Positions 5,984-44,803 of a stretch of DNA of 44,803 nucleotides are shown here, one piece after another. The notes under the pieces were generated by a model. It did not search any database and was not told where the DNA came from. It worked only from the letters and a program-made list of their open reading frames with translations. Origin of the DNA: Streptococcus sp. DD13 (GTDB lineage Bacteria > Bacillota > Bacilli > Lactobacillales > Streptococcaceae); contig NZ_KQ969506.1 in NCBI RefSeq assembly GCF_001578875.1, forward strand, positions 1,058,777-1,103,579. The letters run 5' to 3'. The position numbers and the translations under genes were made by a program. How positions within the stretch are numbered: position 1 is the first letter of the stretch; the number at the start of each line of letters is the position of its first letter.

Positions 5984-8816
5984 TTACGAGAGATGAAGTT
6001 TTTCTTTGAGGTATTGGCCGGTGAAGCTAGTCGGCTGCTGAGCGACTTCTTCTGGGGTGCCCGTTTCGATGATCTGGCCACCTCCGACGCCCCCTTCTGG
6101 CCCTAGGTCAATGATATGGTCTGCCGTTTTGATCACATCGAGATTATGCTCGATCACTAAGACGGTATTTCCGTCGTCGACAAAGCGCTCCAAGACCTTG
6201 ATCAGGCGCGCAATATCCTCGGTATGAAGACCCGTAGTGGGCTCGTCCAAGATATAGAAGGACTTGCCGGTCGAGCGCTTGTGGAGCTCTGAAGCTAGCT
6301 TCATCCGCTGCGCTTCTCCTCCAGAGAGGGTGGTCGCAGGTTGGCCAAGAGTAACATAGCCAAGGCCTACATCCTGGATCGTCCGAATCTTGCGCTCGAT
6401 CTTTGGGATATGCTGGAAGAACTCCAAGGCATCGGTCACGGTCATATCCAAGACTTCTGCGATATTTTTTCCCTTGTAATGCACTTCTAGGGTCTCACTA
6501 TTGTACCTACGTCCATGGCAGACTTCACAAGGGACAAAGACGTCTGGTAAAAAGTGCATTTCGATCTTGATGATCCCGTCTCCCGAACAGGCTTCGCAGC
6601 GTCCTCCTTTGACATTAAAGCTGAAGCGTCCCTTTTTGTACCCTCGGATCTTGGCTTCGTTAGTCTGGGCAAATAAATCACGGATATCATCAAAGACTCC
6701 CGTATAGGTCGCAGGGTTGGACCGTGGTGTCCGACCGATCGGACTTTGATCGATATCAATCAGTCGGTCCAGATGCTCGACTCCAGTGATCTTCTTAAAT
6801 TTTCCGGGCTTTTCAGAATTGCGATTGATCTTTTGAGCCAGAGCCCGTTTCAAGATGGTATTGACCAAGGTGGACTTTCCTGACCCAGAGACCCCGGTCA
6901 CAGCGATAAACTTTCCTAGTGGAAAGCGGACGGTCACATCTTGCAAATTATTTTCCGTCGCACCTGTGATCTCGACGAAACGGCCATTGCCCTTGCGCCG
7001 CTCCTCAGGAAGGGGAATCTCCTTCTTGCCCGAAAGGTACTGCCCTGTGATAGATTGCTTGTTTCGAGCGACTTGTGCCGGAGTCCCCGCAGCCACCACT
7101 TCACCTCCAAACTGACCTGCACCTGGTCCGATATCGATCAGGTAGTCAGCCTGTCGCATGGTGTCTTCATCATGCTCAACGACGATCAGGGTATTCCCTA
7201 AATCCCGCATCTTTTTGAGACTGTCAATCAGGCGATCATTGTCCCGCTGATGAAGACCGATGGAGGGCTCATCTAGGATATAGAGGACACCCGACAAGTT
7301 GGAGCCGATCTGGGTGGCCAGGCGAATCCGCTGACTCTCCCCACCCGACAAGGTCCCAGAAGAACGAGATAAAGTGAGATAATTGAGCCCGACGTTGTTC
7401 AGAAAGCTAAGGCGATCTCGAATTTCCTTTAAAATCGGTGTCGCAATCGTCGCTTCATTCTCAGACAAGGTCAGCTCCTCCAGCAAGGCCAGATGATCCG
7501 CGATGGATAAATCCGACACTTGACCGATATGAAGACCGGATTCCCCTCCCACACGGACAGACAAGGCCTGGTCATTAAGACGGTAGCCATGACAGGTGGC
7601 ACAGGTCAGCTCATTCATGTAGTTGCGCATTTGATTGCGGGTAAAGTCACTGCTGGTCTCATGGTAACGCCGGTTAATATTGGTCAAGACGCCCTCGAAA
7701 GGAATATCAATATCTCGGACACCCCCAAAGTCATTTTCATAATGGAAGTGGAATTCCTTCCCTTTGGAACCACTGAAAATCAACTCTTTTTCTTCCTCTG
7801 TCAGAGATTCAAAGGGCTGATCGAGGTCTACTCCAAACTGCTCCATAGCCTGCTCTAGCATTTGAGGGTAATAATTGGACGAAATCGGGTTCCATGGGGC
7901 CAAAGCTCCGTCCCGCAGGCTCTTGCTTGGATCCGGGACCACCAGGTCTAAATCAACTTCCAGCCGCACCCCCAGGCCGTCACAGTCCGGACACGAACCA
8001 AAAGGGGCATTGAAAGAAAAGAGGCGAGGCTCCAATTCCGGCACCGTAAAGCCACAGACCGGACAGGCATAATGCTCTGAAAAAAAGCAACTCCTCCCCG
8101 TCCATAGTATCGATAACGACATACCCTTCTGCTAGTAGCAGGGCTGCTTCTACTGAGTCAAATAAGCGCGAACGAATCCCTTCTTTGAGAACAATCCGGT
8201 CTACGACGACCTCGATGGTGTGTTGTCTGCTCTTAGACAGTTCGGGAACTTCCGTCACGTCGTAAATGTCCCCATCCACGCGCACCCGGACATAGCCATC
8301 CTTTTGGATTTTTTCGATGACGGTCTTGTGCTGCCCCTTCTTTTTGCGCACGACCGGTGCTAGAACTTGAAGGCGCTGTCCCAGAGGCAATCCCAAAATC
8401 TCATCTACGATTTGCTCTACTGACGAGGCTGCAATAGGACCGTGCCCATTGATACAATAAGGCGTCCCTACTCGGGCATAGAGGAGGCGTAAGTAATCAT
8501 TGATCTCCGTCACAGTCCCCACCGTCGAACGAGGATTTTTACTCGTCGTCTTTTGGTCGATGGAAATGGCCGGACTCAAACCTTCAATCGAATCCACATC
8601 AGGCTTATCCATATTGCCCAAAAATTGACGGGCATAAGCCGAGAGGCTCTCGACATATCGCCTTTGCCCTTCTGCATAAAGCGTATCAAAGGCTAGGCTG
8701 GACTTGCCGGATCCAGAAAGTCCCGTCACCACCACTAGCTTATCTCGCGGAATCGTCACATCGATATTTTTTAAATTATGGGCCCTAGCCCCATGAATCA
8801 CAATCTTATCTTGCAT
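5984..8816 (-). CDS. uvrA: Excinuclease ABC subunit A, interrupted by a frameshift
   Basis: Damage-recognition ATPase of nucleotide excision repair. The start at 8816 ([20 protein letters not shown]) follows AAGGAG. The N-terminal part carries Walker [15 protein letters not shown], and the C-terminal part carries [15 protein letters not shown], two LSGGE signatures and zinc-finger cysteine pairs. The two parts are in different frames. At an A7 run (plus 8080-8086) the expected [14 protein letters not shown] becomes ELLFFRALC; six A's would restore one ~943-residue protein, the normal length. The insertion is therefore one base in a homopolymer, either real loss of UvrA or a sequence error. 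Both halves are otherwise intact, which favours error or a recent event. UvrA is followed by a terminator. Confidence 0.93.
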
Positions 8817-11037: not shown

Positions 11038-12435
11038 TTACAAAGCTGACCAAGGGAAACTTTCTGAGACAAAAGTGACGGACTGGGTCGTAGGAGTAGC
11101 AGCGTAGTTTCCTGGAGCTGTCGGATAACTCATAGACCAGGTGTTGGAGTTGCTTTCTGTATCTGAATAAAAAGGAATGTTTGTTAAATCTTCAAGAATG
11201 GTTCTTTGGCTGACGGCTGTATAAGCCTTGACAAACTCATCTGGATGGTAAGTCGTCCCTGCATAGGTGATGGTCAGGTTTTCCTTGATTTCATCGGTAG
11301 TCGGGTAGCCACTAATAGCTTCACCAACCACTCCTTGGGAGGTATAGATCGGTAGGTCATACTGGAGATAGGAAGCACCTTTTTCATCTACTCCTTTGGT
11401 TGGGGTGATTTCTTGTCCCTTCCAAGCGATGGACACAGGCTTATCTGCATTGACTATTTTACCAAACACATCAATAGTCTTTCCATCATAGTCTGTTTTC
11501 CCTGTATTGATCACTGTAAACCAACCATTCAGACGCAAGCTGAGGTTGAGGGTATAGGTCCCTAACTTGTCATAGACATAGGTTACAGTCTGGGTGCTGT
11601 CAGTGACGGTCCCAGAGGCAGCTGCAGAATCCGTTGCAAGCTCCTTGAACTGGTAGCCGTCGATCACTTTTTGCTCTGTGGCATAGGTCGTACCGACTTC
11701 TAGGCCATCTGCTACGGTGACACTGTCCGCAATCTCTTGACCATCGGTATCCACATAACGGGCGATGACACTACCAGAAGCGGTAGAGATGACACCGACA
11801 TAGTGATACCCATCAATGGTAGGCGGTGTGATGACTGTACCAGTTGCGAGCAAGGTTGTTCCCTTGAGCGCTGTACCGGAGTAGGCCTTAACTGCACTTG
11901 TCCCTAGGCTCAGGGTTCCAGTAGCTAATAAGAGGACTACCAACCCCTTTACACCCCGGCCTTTGCGACGAAAGACAAGGACAAAAGCTCCTCCCAGAAA
12001 GACCAGTCCGAGGGTAGAAATCATCACCATAGTGTCTTCACCAGTTTGTGGCAATTGGCCTTCTGGCGTCCTCTTGACCTGCTCATCCTTTGTAGATGGT
12101 GGGGTAGAGGTCGTAGATGGAGGATTGGAAGAACTGGAGGAAGAGCTGGAATCCTTGGTTTCATCCTTGGCATAGACCAGCTTATAGCGCCAGTTCGCTT
12201 GGATAACTTCACCAGTAGTCAGTTGGCGGAGCTGCGCAAGCTCTGTACTGTCCAAGCTTTCCTTGTCCACATAAGCGACATTCGGACCTCCTTGGTCAGC
12301 AGTTTTGAGTGCGGACCAATCCCCTGTCGCTGCGAAAGCGGAGAGGGACCAAAAGCCTACTGTAAATAGAATCGTAGCTAGTAATCCTAGGATCTTTTTA
12401 GGAGCTACTAAGCGACGAAAAGTTGATATTGGCAT
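11038..12435 (-). CDS. Surface protein with internal LPQTG sorting signal followed by a second export-like signal and MucBP domain
   Basis: 465 residues from the second of two adjacent ATGs (12435), seven bases after AAGGAGG; 12438 is the alternative. Order: basic N-terminus and signal peptide ending SLSAFA (1-35); a short ectodomain (36-95); a Ser/Thr/Pro linker with eight serines; LPQTG at 128-132, a hydrophobic helix to about 155, then RRKGRGVK, a complete sortase signal. Translation continues: a second hydrophobic stretch (164-180) ending AVKA, like a signal peptidase site; then YSGTAL and a MucBP-like domain (ITPPTIDGYHYVG... to YVYDKL); then an unassigned C-terminal domain of ~150 residues. 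An LPxTG in mid-protein is abnormal. A paralogue with the same layout lies at 43625-44803. Likely role: host mucin or wall binding (inferred). Confidence 0.8.
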   Translation of the reverse strand: MPISTFRRLVAPKKILGLLATILFTVGFWSLSAFAATGDWSALKTADQGGPNVAYVDKESLDSTELAQLRQLTTGEVIQANWRYKLVYAKDETKDSSSSSSSSNPPSTTSTPPSTKDEQVKRTPEGQLPQTGEDTMVMISTLGLVFLGGAFVLVFRRKGRGVKGLVVLLLATGTLSLGTSAVKAYSGTALKGTTLLATGTVITPPTIDGYHYVGVISTASGSVIARYVDTDGQEIADSVTVADGLEVGTTYATEQKVIDGYQFKELATDSAAASGTVTDSTQTVTYVYDKLGTYTLNLSLRLNGWFTVINTGKTDYDGKTIDVFGKIVNADKPVSIAWKGQEITPTKGVDEKGASYLQYDLPIYTSQGVVGEAISGYPTTDEIKENLTITYAGTTYHPDEFVKAYTAVSQRTILEDLTNIPFYSDTESNSNTWSMSYPTAPGNYAATPTTQSVTFVSESFPWSAL

Positions 12436-12479
12436 CATCTTGCCTCCTTGTAAATAGAGTCGTACATTTCTGCACCTAC

Positions 12480-12509
12480 AGTATAACACAACGGGCGAAA
12501 TCTTTCCAA
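12480..12509 (-). promoter_or_regulatory. Promoter of the internal-LPQTG protein gene
   Basis: Minus strand TTGGAA (12504-12509), 18-bp spacer, TATACT (12480-12485), about 45 bp before the start codon. Confidence 0.6.
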
Positions 12510-24415: not shown

Positions 24416-27349
24416 TTATCTAGACTTCAGATCTATCTCCATCGCATCGAGCTCTTCTACAAAATACTTGTCCCTGTAAGGATTCAAATACTGCCGTGCG
24501 ACCTTGGCGTAAGCTGAGAAGTCTCCCGTCACTTCCTCTAAGAGAGAAGGAAAATCTCCTTCATTTCTTTGCTTTTTAAAGGCGAGCAAGGCCAGAAAAT
24601 AGTTTACCAGTCCCCGATCCCTAGGATTCCCATAGCGGTTCATAAGGTGCTCTTTTTTCGCCAGAAAGCTTCGAAGTTTCTCCTCATTTTTCTCCTCCAA
24701 GGCTAGAAGAGCCAGATAGAGTTCTAGCTGGGCCTCCTTCCAGGGAAAGCTCAGCCGCGATAAGACGTGATGGGCTTGGTCCAACACTTCTTTGGAGCGT
24801 TTGAAATCTCCCATCAAATAGTGACTAATCCCTCGTCCGATTTCAAATACAATAGCGATGGATTCCATATTTTCCCTCTGGACAAGCTGCAAGGCCTCTT
24901 CTTGGTGTGCCAAGGCCACCGTATAGTTTCCCCGAATTTGCTCGATTTCTGCCAAATAATCCAAGGCCGCCGCGATCTGGATCGGATAGTGCTGTTGCAA
25001 CGAACGAGTCAAACTGAAGCAATCCAGGGACTGATAGAAGTGTCGAGTCGCTTGCTCTTCGTCCCCTTTGATGAGGAAATAGACCCCTCTCAACCGCAAA
25101 TGCAGGGCAATCGCCTCATGGTTATTGGCGCGAACAGAATCTTCCAAAGCCAGATCCGAATAATAATCCAACTCCGACAGGTTCTCCGTCTGGATACAGT
25201 AATAAATCATCTGTCGATAGGCTTCTAACAAATAGTCCAGACGATCCAGCTCCTTAGCCATCTGAATGACTTGTTGAATAGCATGGATCCCCTTTTGGTA
25301 ATCTCCCAATCGGATATAATAACGCCCCTCTAGATACAAAAAGCGCATCCGCAAGAGTCGAAACTCCTTTTCCCGCTGATGGTGAGCCTGTAACTCCCCC
25401 AACTCATGGCGAATATAGGACAATTGATCCAGGATATCCACCGTCCGATAGCCTCCTGACCGTTCCATCCCATCTCTTCCCTTATAATAGATAGGAAAGA
25501 GTTCCTGATGAAACTGAAGAATTCCTTCCAGATAGTTGAGCTCATAAGTCAAGGATTGTAGATTTTCCTTTGACTGCTTGTACTGATAGGCGATCTCCTT
25601 GTGAAGAGAAAGTTGCCCGTGCTCTTTCAATTGCTCCTCTAATTTCAGCGCAATCTGTTGATGGAGGATCCGTTTTTTCGTGAGGGTCAAAGACTGATAA
25701 GCAAACTCCCCCAGGACCTTTTGATGAAATTGGATCAGCAAGTGATCGTGTTCTTCCCTGACCTCTAGTATTCTACTTTCAACGAGCCGATCAACCAGCT
25801 GAGATAAGGAAACCCGATCCAGCTCTAACAAATCGAGCAAGAGCCTAAAAGGGACTGCCTTTCGGAAACAGGACAAGACAAACAAAAGTTCACTTTCCTG
25901 ACCTTCTAAACCGACCCAGCATTCCGATAGATAAGAGCGAATGGCTGGTGGAAGGGGATCAAATCGTGCATTTTCTTGGTAAAACCGGATATACTCTGTC
26001 AGGAAAAACAAATTCCCCTGGCTCCACACCAGCATCGACTGCAAGGCTTCTGGGACGATATCCCCCAATTCTCTACGGATAAGTCCCAGACTATCCTGAT
26101 CCGTGAACCCATTCAGATCTAGCTCCACAACCCCTTCTTCAACTCTTAGTTTCGCTAGAAGCGATGCCAATTTTGCTGGTAATTTCTGGCGAAAACTCAA
26201 GATGACACTCACTCGCTCGGATAAGGCTTGATCTAGCAATCTCTCCAAAAATAAAATCGAGGCCTCTTCAAGCAGATCAATCTGTTCAAAGATTAAGAGC
26301 AGGGGAAGGCCAGCAGTCCCTTGTAAGAGGTGAAAGAGGGGATCCGTCGTTTCAAACGAAGACATTTCCTCTCGGCGCATCAAACTTTCCACGAGACTCA
26401 GCGAAAGATCTGACCGGTTTTTTTCTGCTTGACAATCGACTTTCACTGTCTGAAAAGCATAGCGCCGTCCCAAGAGGGCTTGGTGCAGCAAGCGATGCTT
26501 GCCAGCCCCAAAATCACCTTGCAAGAGCAAGAGTCGTCCCGGATCACGCCCTTCTTCAATGGAGCTCAAAAAATCTTCTAAGACAGCCATTTCTTCCTTG
26601 CGTCCCCAAAAGCCAAGTCGTCGGCTTTTAGAGGATGTATGGTAACGTTCGGCCCTTCTTTCTTTCAAGACAACTTGATAAAGCGACTCAATGGCATCAT
26701 TTGGACGCACACCCAACTCCCGATCCAACAAATCAACTAGAGAATAATAGGTCTCAAAAAATTTCCCGAATTGCTCCTCCTGTTGATAGTGGAGCAATAA
26801 GAGCTGGTAGTTCTTTTCTTCAAATTCATCTAGATCGATTAGCCGCATCAAGAGATGTTCGACATCTGAGCGATCTAGTTCTGGCTCTTCTAACTTTTGA
26901 TAGGAAGAATCGATATAGAGTTGGCGGAAGGCCAGACGCTTCTTCATAACCCAATTTTCATATTCCGAGTCATCCTTGACATAAAAACCTTCTAAAAAAT
27001 CCCCCTGATAGACGGCTAGTTTGTTGAGAGGATCGCTGACAAAGACGTCCACATCTACTTCGACCTGATACTGGGGATTTAAGGCTAGACTACTTCGGCT
27101 GGGAGAAATCAGATAATCCGCTCCCAGTATTTTATTTGCTTGGTAGACCGTATTGCGCAAGTTCTTCCGCGCTACCTGATTATTCTTATCCGCCCATAGG
27201 AGACCTGCAATTTCATCACGATTGACCTCCCCCATGACGGCCACATAGTACAAAAGCGCCTCAATTTTTAAATAGGAAAACCTAATTTCAACATCTTTTT
27301 TATAAACCTTGGGTTGCCCAAACAACTTGAATCGTAGTTTTCCCTTCAT
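24416..27349 (-). CDS. Large BTAD/AAA/TPR transcriptional regulator
   Basis: 977 residues from the ATG at 27349, chosen because GGAGG lies eight bases upstream; longer readings only cross the promoter and a repeat. Layout: OmpR-like winged helix (about 1-95, KIEALLYYVAVMGEVNRDEIAGLLW); bacterial transcriptional activator domain (100-240); an NTPase-like domain from ~250; helical repeat/TPR-like C-terminus (600-977). The P-loop reads GDFGAGKH (278-285), with His where Ser/Thr binds Mg-ATP. The Walker B strand LLLIFEQID lacks the usual Asp-Asp/Glu. ATP turnover may therefore be lost. This SARP/MalT-like architecture usually means an activator sensing a ligand. It is next to hut and met genes; target unknown, hut is the best guess. 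Confidence 0.8.
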   Translation of the reverse strand: MKGKLRFKLFGQPKVYKKDVEIRFSYLKIEALLYYVAVMGEVNRDEIAGLLWADKNNQVARKNLRNTVYQANKILGADYLISPSRSSLALNPQYQVEVDVDVFVSDPLNKLAVYQGDFLEGFYVKDDSEYENWVMKKRLAFRQLYIDSSYQKLEEPELDRSDVEHLLMRLIDLDEFEEKNYQLLLLHYQQEEQFGKFFETYYSLVDLLDRELGVRPNDAIESLYQVVLKERRAERYHTSSKSRRLGFWGRKEEMAVLEDFLSSIEEGRDPGRLLLLQGDFGAGKHRLLHQALLGRRYAFQTVKVDCQAEKNRSDLSLSLVESLMRREEMSSFETTDPLFHLLQGTAGLPLLLIFEQIDLLEEASILFLERLLDQALSERVSVILSFRQKLPAKLASLLAKLRVEEGVVELDLNGFTDQDSLGLIRRELGDIVPEALQSMLVWSQGNLFFLTEYIRFYQENARFDPLPPAIRSYLSECWVGLEGQESELLFVLSCFRKAVPFRLLLDLLELDRVSLSQLVDRLVESRILEVREEHDHLLIQFHQKVLGEFAYQSLTLTKKRILHQQIALKLEEQLKEHGQLSLHKEIAYQYKQSKENLQSLTYELNYLEGILQFHQELFPIYYKGRDGMERSGGYRTVDILDQLSYIRHELGELQAHHQREKEFRLLRMRFLYLEGRYYIRLGDYQKGIHAIQQVIQMAKELDRLDYLLEAYRQMIYYCIQTENLSELDYYSDLALEDSVRANNHEAIALHLRLRGVYFLIKGDEEQATRHFYQSLDCFSLTRSLQQHYPIQIAAALDYLAEIEQIRGNYTVALAHQEEALQLVQRENMESIAIVFEIGRGISHYLMGDFKRSKEVLDQAHHVLSRLSFPWKEAQLELYLALLALEEKNEEKLRSFLAKKEHLMNRYGNPRDRGLVNYFLALLAFKKQRNEGDFPSLLEEVTGDFSAYAKVARQYLNPYRDKYFVEELDAMEIDLKSR

Positions 27350-27377
27350 TGTAAACGCCTCCATTCTCTCTTTCTTT

Positions 27378-27406
27378 ACTATAAAACAAAAGTTTGTTTT
27401 TTTCAA
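27378..27406 (-). promoter_or_regulatory. Promoter of the BTAD regulator
   Basis: Minus strand TTGAAA (27401-27406), 17-bp spacer, TATAGT (27378-27383). The spacer contains a dyad AAACAAA/TTTGTTT. Further dyads upstream are TTTAC-tttcg-GTAAA and GAACG-GAA-CGTTC, which could be operator sites. Confidence 0.7.
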
Positions 27407-27528
27407 GCATTTTACCGAAAGTAAACAGTTTGACCGAACGTTCCGTTCTACAGCTAAAAAGACAGACCCATCCGATCCCTTTACAGGTCCCCAAGGCAGA
27501 CAACTCCATCGTTTATCATTGCATTCAA

Positions 27529-27706
27529 AAAGAGGCTGGGACAAAAGTCCTAGCCTCTCAATGGTTTTTGGATTGTCGAGCAAGACGCAGTGGTTGGGTG
27601 AGTTCTACTAGGCTGATTTCATCCGCTTTTATAGCCCTAGTCAACGGTGCGGAGGTGGGACAAAAATCGAATGCTAACGAATAACCGATTTCTGTCCCAC
27701 TCTCTT
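27529..27706 (-). repeat. Interspersed 3'-flanking repeat, copy B (~178 bp)
   Basis: Inverted copy of the repeat at 1935-2111. Its GAGAGTGGGACAG end is at 27706, seven bp beyond the metF stop, and its terminal hairpin (AGAGGCTGGGAC / GTCCtAGCCTCT) is distal. Orientation relative to metF is the same as copies A and C relative to their upstream genes. Confidence 0.85.
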
Positions 27707-43624: not shown

Positions 43625-44803
43625 TTACAGTTCATCTACAGGAGCCACTGCAATAGGAGTGGTAAATGTTGTCGCCACTGTGCCATCCCAATTGATGACT
43701 CCTCCGCCTCCCTTATCCTGGTTCTCTATATTACTCAAATAGACGTTGTTAAAGCCTGCCCCATTGTACTGCGCTCTTATCCGATCGCGAATTTTATCTT
43801 GAATCGGTAGTAAGTAGTCGTAGATTTTGTTGGCTGGAATCTCCTTGTCGCCATGGTGGAAGACCAGGTCCTTTTGAACATCATAAGTCGGAATTGGAGT
43901 TCCCTCCACTCCTTCTACTTTGAAGAGGGTAACATCCTTATACTCAATCCGGCCATCTTTAACTGAGGTGGGCTCGATGACCTTGCCTTGGAAGGTCACA
44001 TAGAACGGGGTCTGCTCATTGGAGATTTCAGAGAGATAATTAACCGTTGTACCCGCCGGTACATAATGACCCGACATTGCCCTGGCATTAAAGTCAAAGG
44101 CAATCGTCATGTGAAGCGCTAAGCCACCATACTTCAGCTTTCTGTAGACATAGGTCACAGTAGTCGTACCTTCGACTACTTGGCCACTGGTCGCTGCTGA
44201 GTCAGCCTGCATTTCTTTGAAAACATAGCCATCAAAGGTCTTTTCTTCTGTCCTATAGTCTGTGCCTACAGCCACATCTGTCAAGAGTTTGACGCTCTCT
44301 AGAGTCGTCCCGTCTGTCGTCACATAGTTGACCACGACAGAACCCTTTTTAGCTTCTGGGGTTGGACTTGGAGCTGGTGTCTCTTCTGTCACTTCGATGA
44401 CCCCAACATAGTGATAACCTGCGATCTCTGCTGGTGTAAGGACCGTATCCTTGGTCAAATGGCTAGTGGCTTGCAGGGCTGTCCCTGAGTAAGCAGAAAC
44501 GGCTGTTGAGCCATAACCCAAGAGGCTTGAGCCGACTAGGACTAGCAAGAGGGTCTTGCCTGCTTTTCTCCCTTTTTTGCTAAGGATCAACCAGCTAGCT
44601 CCGGCAAAGAAGAGGACCCCAAGCAAGCTAAGACTGGTATTGAGCCATTCCGCTCCTGTCTCAGGAAGAGAACGAGCTGGTGTGCCTGACTGAGGTTTCT
44701 TTGGTTGGTTTGGTTGGTTCGGACTTGGTGTCTCCCCTGGTGTAGGTGGAGTCGCTTGGTCCTTGTCATAGACCAGCTTGTAGAGAGAGTTAGCTTTGAC
44801 GGT
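43625..44803 (-). CDS. Surface protein with internal LPETG sorting signal and MucBP domain, partial
   Basis: The gene runs off the right edge; the frame is open from 44803, so the first internal ATG (44626) is not the start. Visible 392 residues: an ectodomain end (TVKANSLYKLVYDKD); a Pro-rich linker; LPETG at 44654-44668; a hydrophobic helix ending near LILSKKGRKAGK; a second hydrophobic stretch ending STAVSA; YSGTAL; a MucBP-like domain (LTPAEIAGYHYVG... VTYVYRKL) with a Pro-rich insert; and a ~155-residue C-terminal domain. The layout is the same as at 11038-12435, and the shared blocks (AN..YKLVY.KD, AV.AYSGTAL, GYHYVGVI, ADSAA.SG.V) show common descent; the C-terminal domains have diverged strongly. 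Confidence 0.8.
   Translation of the reverse strand, partial: TVKANSLYKLVYDKDQATPPTPGETPSPNQPNQPKKPQSGTPARSLPETGAEWLNTSLSLLGVLFFAGASWLILSKKGRKAGKTLLLVLVGSSLLGYGSTAVSAYSGTALQATSHLTKDTVLTPAEIAGYHYVGVIEVTEETPAPSPTPEAKKGSVVVNYVTTDGTTLESVKLLTDVAVGTDYRTEEKTFDGYVFKEMQADSAATSGQVVEGTTTVTYVYRKLKYGGLALHMTIAFDFNARAMSGHYVPAGTTVNYLSEISNEQTPFYVTFQGKVIEPTSVKDGRIEYKDVTLFKVEGVEGTPIPTYDVQKDLVFHHGDKEIPANKIYDYLLPIQDKIRDRIRAQYNGAGFNNVYLSNIENQDKGGGGVINWDGTVATTFTTPIAVAPVDEL

Follow-up and report, generated by a model that had tools for sequence, protein, structure and literature searches.

The gene at 11038-12438 on the minus strand of the window (the whole stretch of 44,803 nucleotides analysed here, from Streptococcus sp. 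DD13) probably encodes a surface protein that is exported by an N-terminal anchor module of the type found in IgA1 proteases (M26 Zmp), carries a MucBP payload behind it and is cut twice, a reading of its sequence to which we give a probability of about 0.6. The anchor of the 466-aa protein is real and conserved and belongs to a known type, but we found no report of it in this setting. Specifically, the layout itself is already known in kind from the 'atypical N-terminal LPXTG' module of M26 proteases, and what is new is the use of this module outside M26, with MucBP and other payloads, which was not found in print. Also new are a signal-peptidase-like AxA end after the second helix, which is enriched over composition and occurs also where LPXTG has decayed, and, as judged from comparison of the copies of the gene, the conservation of a scaffold between them while the C-terminus has diverged.

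Layout of the protein and its copies

The reading frame ends with the stop codon at 11038-11040 and opens with an adjacent pair of ATG codons at 12438 and 12435, from the first of which the 466 residues are counted; the preliminary description was numbered from the second, and its residue numbers are one lower (LPQTG at 128-132 there). Since AAGGAGG stands 7 bases before the second ATG, and 4 before the first, the second ATG may be the true start. The site further upstream is promoter-like only, the consensus scan having returned 8 sites in the region on both strands against 2.5 expected. The order of parts that the preliminary description had proposed, namely signal peptide, ectodomain, LPQTG, helix, RRKGRGVK, AVKA and MucBP, is borne out by sequence, hydropathy, Pfam and NCBIfam (Table 1). 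Pfam places MucBP (PF06458) at residues 224-289 (E 1.4e-16, 61.4 bits against a cut-off of 23) and Gram_pos_anchor at residues 125-159 (E 5.6e-5, above cut-off), and NCBIfam places LPXTG_anchor at residues 128-159, above cut-off as well. Pfam gave no YSIRK match in the 466-aa protein and no Peptidase_M26 domain anywhere along it, and on this measure the protein lies outside the M26 family.

Table 1. Features of the 466-aa gene and of a second family copy (positions in the window; residues counted from the ATG at 12438)
Feature	Residues	Positions	Strand	Basis
Promoter-like TTGGAA-18-TATACT, TG ahead of -10		12480-12509	-	consensus scan
Ribosome binding site AAGGAGG		12443-12449	-	direct reading
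N-terminal signal peptide (AFA/A)	1-36	12331-12438	-	hydropathy; cut site judged by eye
Ectodomain, 92 aa, with Ser/Pro linker	37-128	12055-12330	-	appears homologous to M26 N-terminal ectodomains (alignment, HMM)
LPQTG sortase motif	129-133	12040-12054	-	sequence, Pfam, NCBIfam
Hydrophobic helix 1	about 135-156	11971-12036	-	mean hydropathy 2.42 over 19 residues
Basic patch RRKGRGVK	157-164	11947-11970	-	sequence
Hydrophobic stretch 2 and signal-peptidase-like end AVKA/Y	165-185	11884-11946	-	hydropathy, motif statistics
Post-helix-2 stretch with GYHYVG (210-215), belongs to module	186-223	11770-11883	-	alignment, HMM
MucBP domain	224-289	11572-11769	-	Pfam PF06458, fold match
C-terminal region, least conserved, without Pfam domain	292-466	11041-11565	-	identity to relatives, Pfam
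Second family copy, cut by window end; LPETG at 44654-44668		43628-44803	-	homology search

Confidence is low in the structure models (mean pLDDT 58.3 and 45.9), and with this limit the AlphaFold prediction for the entire protein has helices at residues 13-36, 134-157 and 164-178. The modelled MucBP part matches the lmo0835 MucBP domain (2kt7; Z 9.1, rmsd 2.4 over 69 residues); the matches of the fold search fall on this part, and for residues 292-466 the models are weak.

The neighbours of the gene on one side are a CorA-type and a DUF1129 gene; on the opposite side, hutI lies together with a histidine-use cluster. Elsewhere in the window, a gene identified by eye as uvrA-like is divided between two overlapping frames (712 and 291 aa) at 7980-8122 on the minus strand, with a T run at the frame switch, which would reflect either a frame break or a sequencing error. 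An open frame of 1055 codons at 24416-27583 on the minus strand has no Pfam match at 1e-10; by eye it resembles a large regulator that opens with a DNA-binding part, has an NTPase-like middle and also contains helical repeats.

The family comprises five copies, three in the DD13 genome and two in that of Streptococcus sp. DD12; besides the copy at the window end, the third DD13 copy lies at 6483-8075 of L043, also on the minus strand. The preliminary description had raised a stop codon between the two halves, and none is there: the frame is uninterrupted across the junction in 5/5 copies, which excludes a sequencing error or stop at this point. In the other four copies, sequence upstream of or within the ectodomain is partly masked (N), and their signal peptides are unseen or partly seen. 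The LPxTG motif is intact in all five, as LPETG in four copies and as LPQTG in the 466-aa protein. In the DD13 genome, one gene of the sortase family was found, together with 14 LPXTG anchors that reach the Pfam cut-off, among them all three family copies; 28-37 residues follow the motif in 11 of the 14, and 333-367 in the three family copies (333 in the 466-aa protein). A fifteenth anchor match lies below cut-off and has no motif. Because the two DD13 paralogues and the two DD12 copies share the layout with no internal stop, the layout is not a product of chance, and a chance LPXTG is likewise excluded by the over-cut-off anchor in all three DD13 copies.

With the 466-aa protein as query, 89 of 284 genus genomes gave a match. 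Among the matches listed for these genomes, relatives of similar size and span are confined to DD13 and DD12, and the remainder are MucBP-only or N-half matches, mostly within much longer frames; a family gene split into separate genes for the two halves, for which the preliminary description had suggested a survey, does not appear among them. The 22 pattern stretches in genome contigs include three relatives, namely the two DD12 copies and one MucBP-only match, and the 98 pattern stretches in viral contigs include none. Within 600 bases on each side, nothing was common to the flanks of gene 11038-12438 and those of the other copies, or to the flanks of the two DD12 copies, and the two other DD13 copies have short 3' flank pieces alone in common.

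Between the DD12 copies, identity is 92% in the N-module, 93% in the post-helix stretch plus MucBP and, in an alignment that is unsure at this level, 32% in the C-terminus, with synonymous divergence of 0.28 and 0.22 followed by saturation at the C-terminus (pS 0.76). For the two other DD13 copies, the same three parts show 97%, 99% and 76% identity and dS of 0.19, 0.07 and 0.48, and the 466-aa protein is 24-29% identical to its relatives in the C-terminus and 56-72% in the part before it. That synonymous divergence rises so abruptly points to gene conversion or exchange whose break lies behind MucBP, and less to amino-acid selection acting by itself.

Relationship to the N-terminal module of M26 proteases

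Sequence comparison indicates that the module of the 466-aa protein is homologous to the N-terminal LPXTG module of the M26 Zmp proteases, including outside the LPXTG-helix part. N-half matches lead to long open frames (about 2000-2700 aa) whose start is of the same kind, and of the first three proteins scanned with Pfam, two (in L036 and L039) contain M26 IgA1-protease domains, while the third (L035, 850-5034, minus strand, 1394 aa) has an S8 subtilase and G5 behind the same N-terminal LPXTG module. An alignment of eight rows (A1) spans the entire N-module, with 12 invariant columns in the ectodomain, LPxT, helix 1, the patch and the final I and VG. For the parts on either side of the LPXTG-helix part, HMMs were built from 38 modules outside the MucBP group, with Z set to 1000; this group of 21 includes 7 rows without a Pfam scan of their own. 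In this comparison, which is not blind since its rows were chosen by a profile seeded with both groups, the ectodomain-only HMM matched 17 of 19 MucBP-group rows at E < 1e-3 (466-aa protein, 7.5e-6) and the post-helix-only HMM 17 of 21 (466-aa protein, 9.1e-5). Shuffled or reversed decoys reached E < 0.1 in 0/969 and 0/1071 cases, respectively. In the post-helix comparison, L124 stood at 0.49, L125 gave no match and L034, a family copy, was weak at 0.023.

The NCBIfam Zmp models, which were built independently, point in the same direction for part of the set. ZmpC matched a SHIRT protein (L133) at 3.2e-20, and ZmpD matched a 242-aa protein (L136) at 5.2e-12 and the family copy L034 at 6.1e-5; in all three the match falls in the module of a protein without the protease domain, and the M26 row L039 was matched too. 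These models gave no match up to 1e-3 in L091, L104, L112 and L121, four of the eight proteins checked, and none up to E 1 in the 466-aa protein. A search of the DD13 genome for an M26 gene found none, and the same search was positive in the genomes G058 and G079.

A module profile seeded with the 466-aa family and M26/S8 rows matched 104 frames, of which 101 were kept (L038, with a C-terminal anchor, and two frames failing length filters were dropped) and 59 remained after removal of near-duplicates; these 59 modules are top profile matches plus chosen regions rather than a random sample. At E 1e-3 the profile matches in 282/284 genus genomes and 308/395 order genomes, where weak matches include ordinary C-terminal anchors (4 of the 7 DD13 matches barely exceed the LPXTG part). 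Among 31 Pfam-scanned module proteins, the payload is MucBP in 14, M26 in 5, G5 without a catalytic domain in 4, and S8, SHIRT and CAP in one each, with no payload domain in 5; some of the G5-only frames may be broken M26 genes. These assignments indicate that the module is portable across payloads (M26, S8, MucBP, SHIRT, CAP, G5 or none).

The module also occurs nearly alone. The no-payload modules of L128 and L134 are long, and the two of L136 and that of L144 are short, at 242-258 aa, with Thr- or Pro-rich tails; those of L138 and L139, which lie outside the 31 scanned proteins, resemble the short L136 and L144 frames. Near-stand-alone modules of 242-268 aa lie at 1418-2143 and 2282-3055 of L136 (minus strand, adjacent), 794-1597 of L138, 44-772 of L139 and 724-1482 of L144. 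In other families of the order, proteins of about 500 aa have the same layout with MucBP repeats (L091-L113, for example L093, L104 and L109); their LPXTG has often decayed to LLKAG/LLKTG or LPKAG, and several terminate in IPEP or IPAP. Across the 59 modules, LPxTG/S is intact in 45 and absent in 14 (LLKTG, LLKAG, LPKAG and others), and all 14 retain both hydrophobic stretches. In a tree of 58 modules (L129 omitted), 27 of the 55 inner branches fall below 80; gene 11038-12438 stands beside L039-type M26 and payload-free modules, in a placement that is not firm. The minimum number of payload changes on this tree is 10 for 30 labelled rows, with L139 and L087 labelled 'none' from length and from their copy L144 rather than from a Pfam scan.

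Proposed export and cleavage, with alternative readings

Stretch 2 looks like an internal signal peptide, in agreement with the second export signal that the preliminary description had read there. It has a hydrophobic core at about residues 165-180 (hydropathy 1.79 over 19 residues) and AVKA at 182-185, followed by YSGTAL. The patch region of the 59 modules averages 4.5 basic residues and 0.3 acidic ones, and in 57 modules an AxA-like end by a looser rule lies 45-57 residues past T-G. In a fixed range of 42-58 residues past T-G, [AV]xA occurs in 48/59 modules against 22.4 (sd 3.2) in shuffles and [AVSTI]xA in 58/59 against 42.9, counts that concern a weak motif in related rows that are not independent; none of 2000 shuffles, which served as composition control, reached the observed count for either form. 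The control ranges +62 to +78 and +28 to +44 gave no excess, and the range +16 to +32 gave some ([AV]xA 17 against 8.9, looser form 22 against 17.2). Among the 14 modules with decayed LPxTG/S, [AV]xA is present in 12 and the looser form in all 14. In the 466-aa protein, direct reading puts AVKA/Y 53 residues past T-G (the automatic distance is 50, its search range ending before AVKA), which parallels the cut reported 56 residues downstream of the conserved N-terminal LPXTG of all M26 IgA1 proteases (PMC9637739, as excerpted).

The likeliest mechanism, and probably the one in operation, is a sortase cut followed by a signal peptidase cut. The first signal peptide would start export and then be removed; helix 1 would stop transfer, the basic patch would stay cytosolic, and LPQTG would thereby be presented to sortase. 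Stretch 2, reading from the shared basic patch, would in turn act as an internal signal peptide and carry the C-terminal part across. Sortase would cut T132-G133 and join the ectodomain of about 90 residues to the wall, and signal peptidase would cut close to A185-Y186, with a small hairpin staying behind in the membrane. This would place the MucBP part outside, where it is either released or kept on the cell, the anchored ectodomain perhaps holding it there. 'One chain, two products', as the preliminary description put it, is what we infer here as well. Plain release fits poorly with the proteases, for which the excerpted reports describe a mature enzyme covalently linked by sortase A (PMC7695701) and a tethered ZmpB (PMC7939560). 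The probable role of the protein is adhesion to mucin or another glycoprotein.

A membrane hairpin that forgoes the second cut, with sortase optional and the MucBP part held in the membrane by stretch 2, is a possible reading that we regard as rather unlikely. Stretch 2 is hydrophobic enough to remain in the membrane (1.79 over 19 residues), both hydrophobic stretches are kept in the 14/59 modules that lost LPxTG/S, and ZmpB is described in excerpt as tethered with an exposed carboxyl end (PMC7939560); against this stand the enrichment of the signal-peptidase-like end (48/59 against 22.4, including 12 of the 14 decayed rows) and the cut that IgA1 proteases undergo downstream of LPXTG, as given in the excerpted text of PMC9637739. 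That LPQTG is a non-functional remnant, with the internal signal peptide alone mattering, as could be the case in the 14 decayed modules, is improbable: the motif is intact in 5/5 family copies and three DD13 copies exceed the Pfam anchor cut-off, although in the wider set LPxTG/S is intact in 45/59 modules against 57/59 for the AxA-like end under the looser rule.

A recent fusion of adjacent genes, one for an LPXTG mini-protein and one for a secreted MucBP protein, would account for the complete look of both halves, and it would be easy in principle, as EF0750-type genes overlap or come within 2 bases of the next gene in 7/12 loci. The fused layout is old, however, since 5 family copies, the M26 proteases and other families of the order all have it. 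The ectodomain HMM of the module, moreover, picks up no EF0750-type protein (best E 4.5, decoys better), and the model NF053819 stays below its cut-off in the 466-aa protein (38.2 against 47 bits), which is no member of that family. We consider such a fusion highly improbable, and sortase cleavage followed by signal peptidase cleavage remains the preferred reading.

Wider reading and comparison with known systems

A broader interpretation, which we offer tentatively, is that of an order-wide two-product device. By placing an internal signal peptide directly behind a sortase signal, with one basic patch common to both, the device might yield a wall-bound ectodomain and a separate payload; the ectodomain might dock a freely swapped payload, some lineages might keep the export half only, and the present family might exchange its C-terminus. 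The excerpted literature treats the odd front end of the IgA1 protease as belonging to a single protease family. Should it instead be a portable module, LPXTG inventories that demand a C-terminal motif would miss a class of proteins or misassign the anchored part, and the two-cut model would be testable in proteins of 250-500 aa rather than in proteases of 2000 aa. The shared ectodomain, furthermore, would be a candidate dock and could explain why a cut-off payload stays on the cell.

The preliminary description knew of no such layout, but it is on record: the excerpted text of four reports (PMC2225412, PMC9637739, PMC7939560, PMC2705793) gives this order of parts for IgA1 protease and ZmpB/C, and the sequences appear homologous. 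Specifically, the N-terminus of the IgA1 protease is presented as an LPXTG anchor domain with transmembrane segments, three of them besides the signal peptide (PMC2225412, in excerpt), of which two are seen in the 466-aa protein. An N-terminal LPXTG is likewise given for IgA1P, ZmpB/C/D and S. suis SSU0879 (PMC7939560, PMC2705793, in excerpt), and the location of LPXTG in these proteases has been termed atypical (PMC6722419, in excerpt). For the layout outside M26, the literature searched with the terms used contained no published description.

The YSIRK/LPxTG proteins of PMC7644249 are alike in having, for about 8.6% of the set, a non-terminal motif, with the location indeterminate in one group; the excerpt of that report gives no module, homology or cut site for them. 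The small sortase proteins of the EF2685/EF0750 type (NF053819) resemble the N-terminal half in signal peptide, short ectodomain and LPXTG tail and often adjoin a same-strand gene; they differ in that there are two genes there and one in DD13, and the EF0750 ectodomain has no match to the module's ectodomain HMM. The seven loci with an overlap or a distance within 2 bases to the next same-strand gene are L152, L153, L157 and L160-L163, and the next gene in these has, by eye, a signal-like start, amounting to a two-gene version of the part order. An EF0750-type mini-protein as direct ancestor of the N-terminal half finds no support, as the best of 12 proteins reached E 4.5 and shuffled decoys did better, at 0.13. 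The proteins lmo0835 and YwfG, with solved MucBP structures, are alike in the MucBP domain and carry their anchor signal at the C-terminus, whereas the anchor signal precedes MucBP in the 466-aa protein.

The M26 Zmp proteases (IgA1 protease/ZmpA, ZmpB, ZmpC and ZmpD, of streptococci and Gemella) share with the 466-aa protein the signal peptide, short ectodomain, LPXTG, helix, basic patch, second hydrophobic stretch, AxA-like end and GYxxVG-like stretch. Compared with these proteases, the DD13 protein is without M26, G5 or a YSIRK match, is 466 rather than about 2000 aa long, and carries as its payload a MucBP domain followed by a C-terminal region without a Pfam domain.
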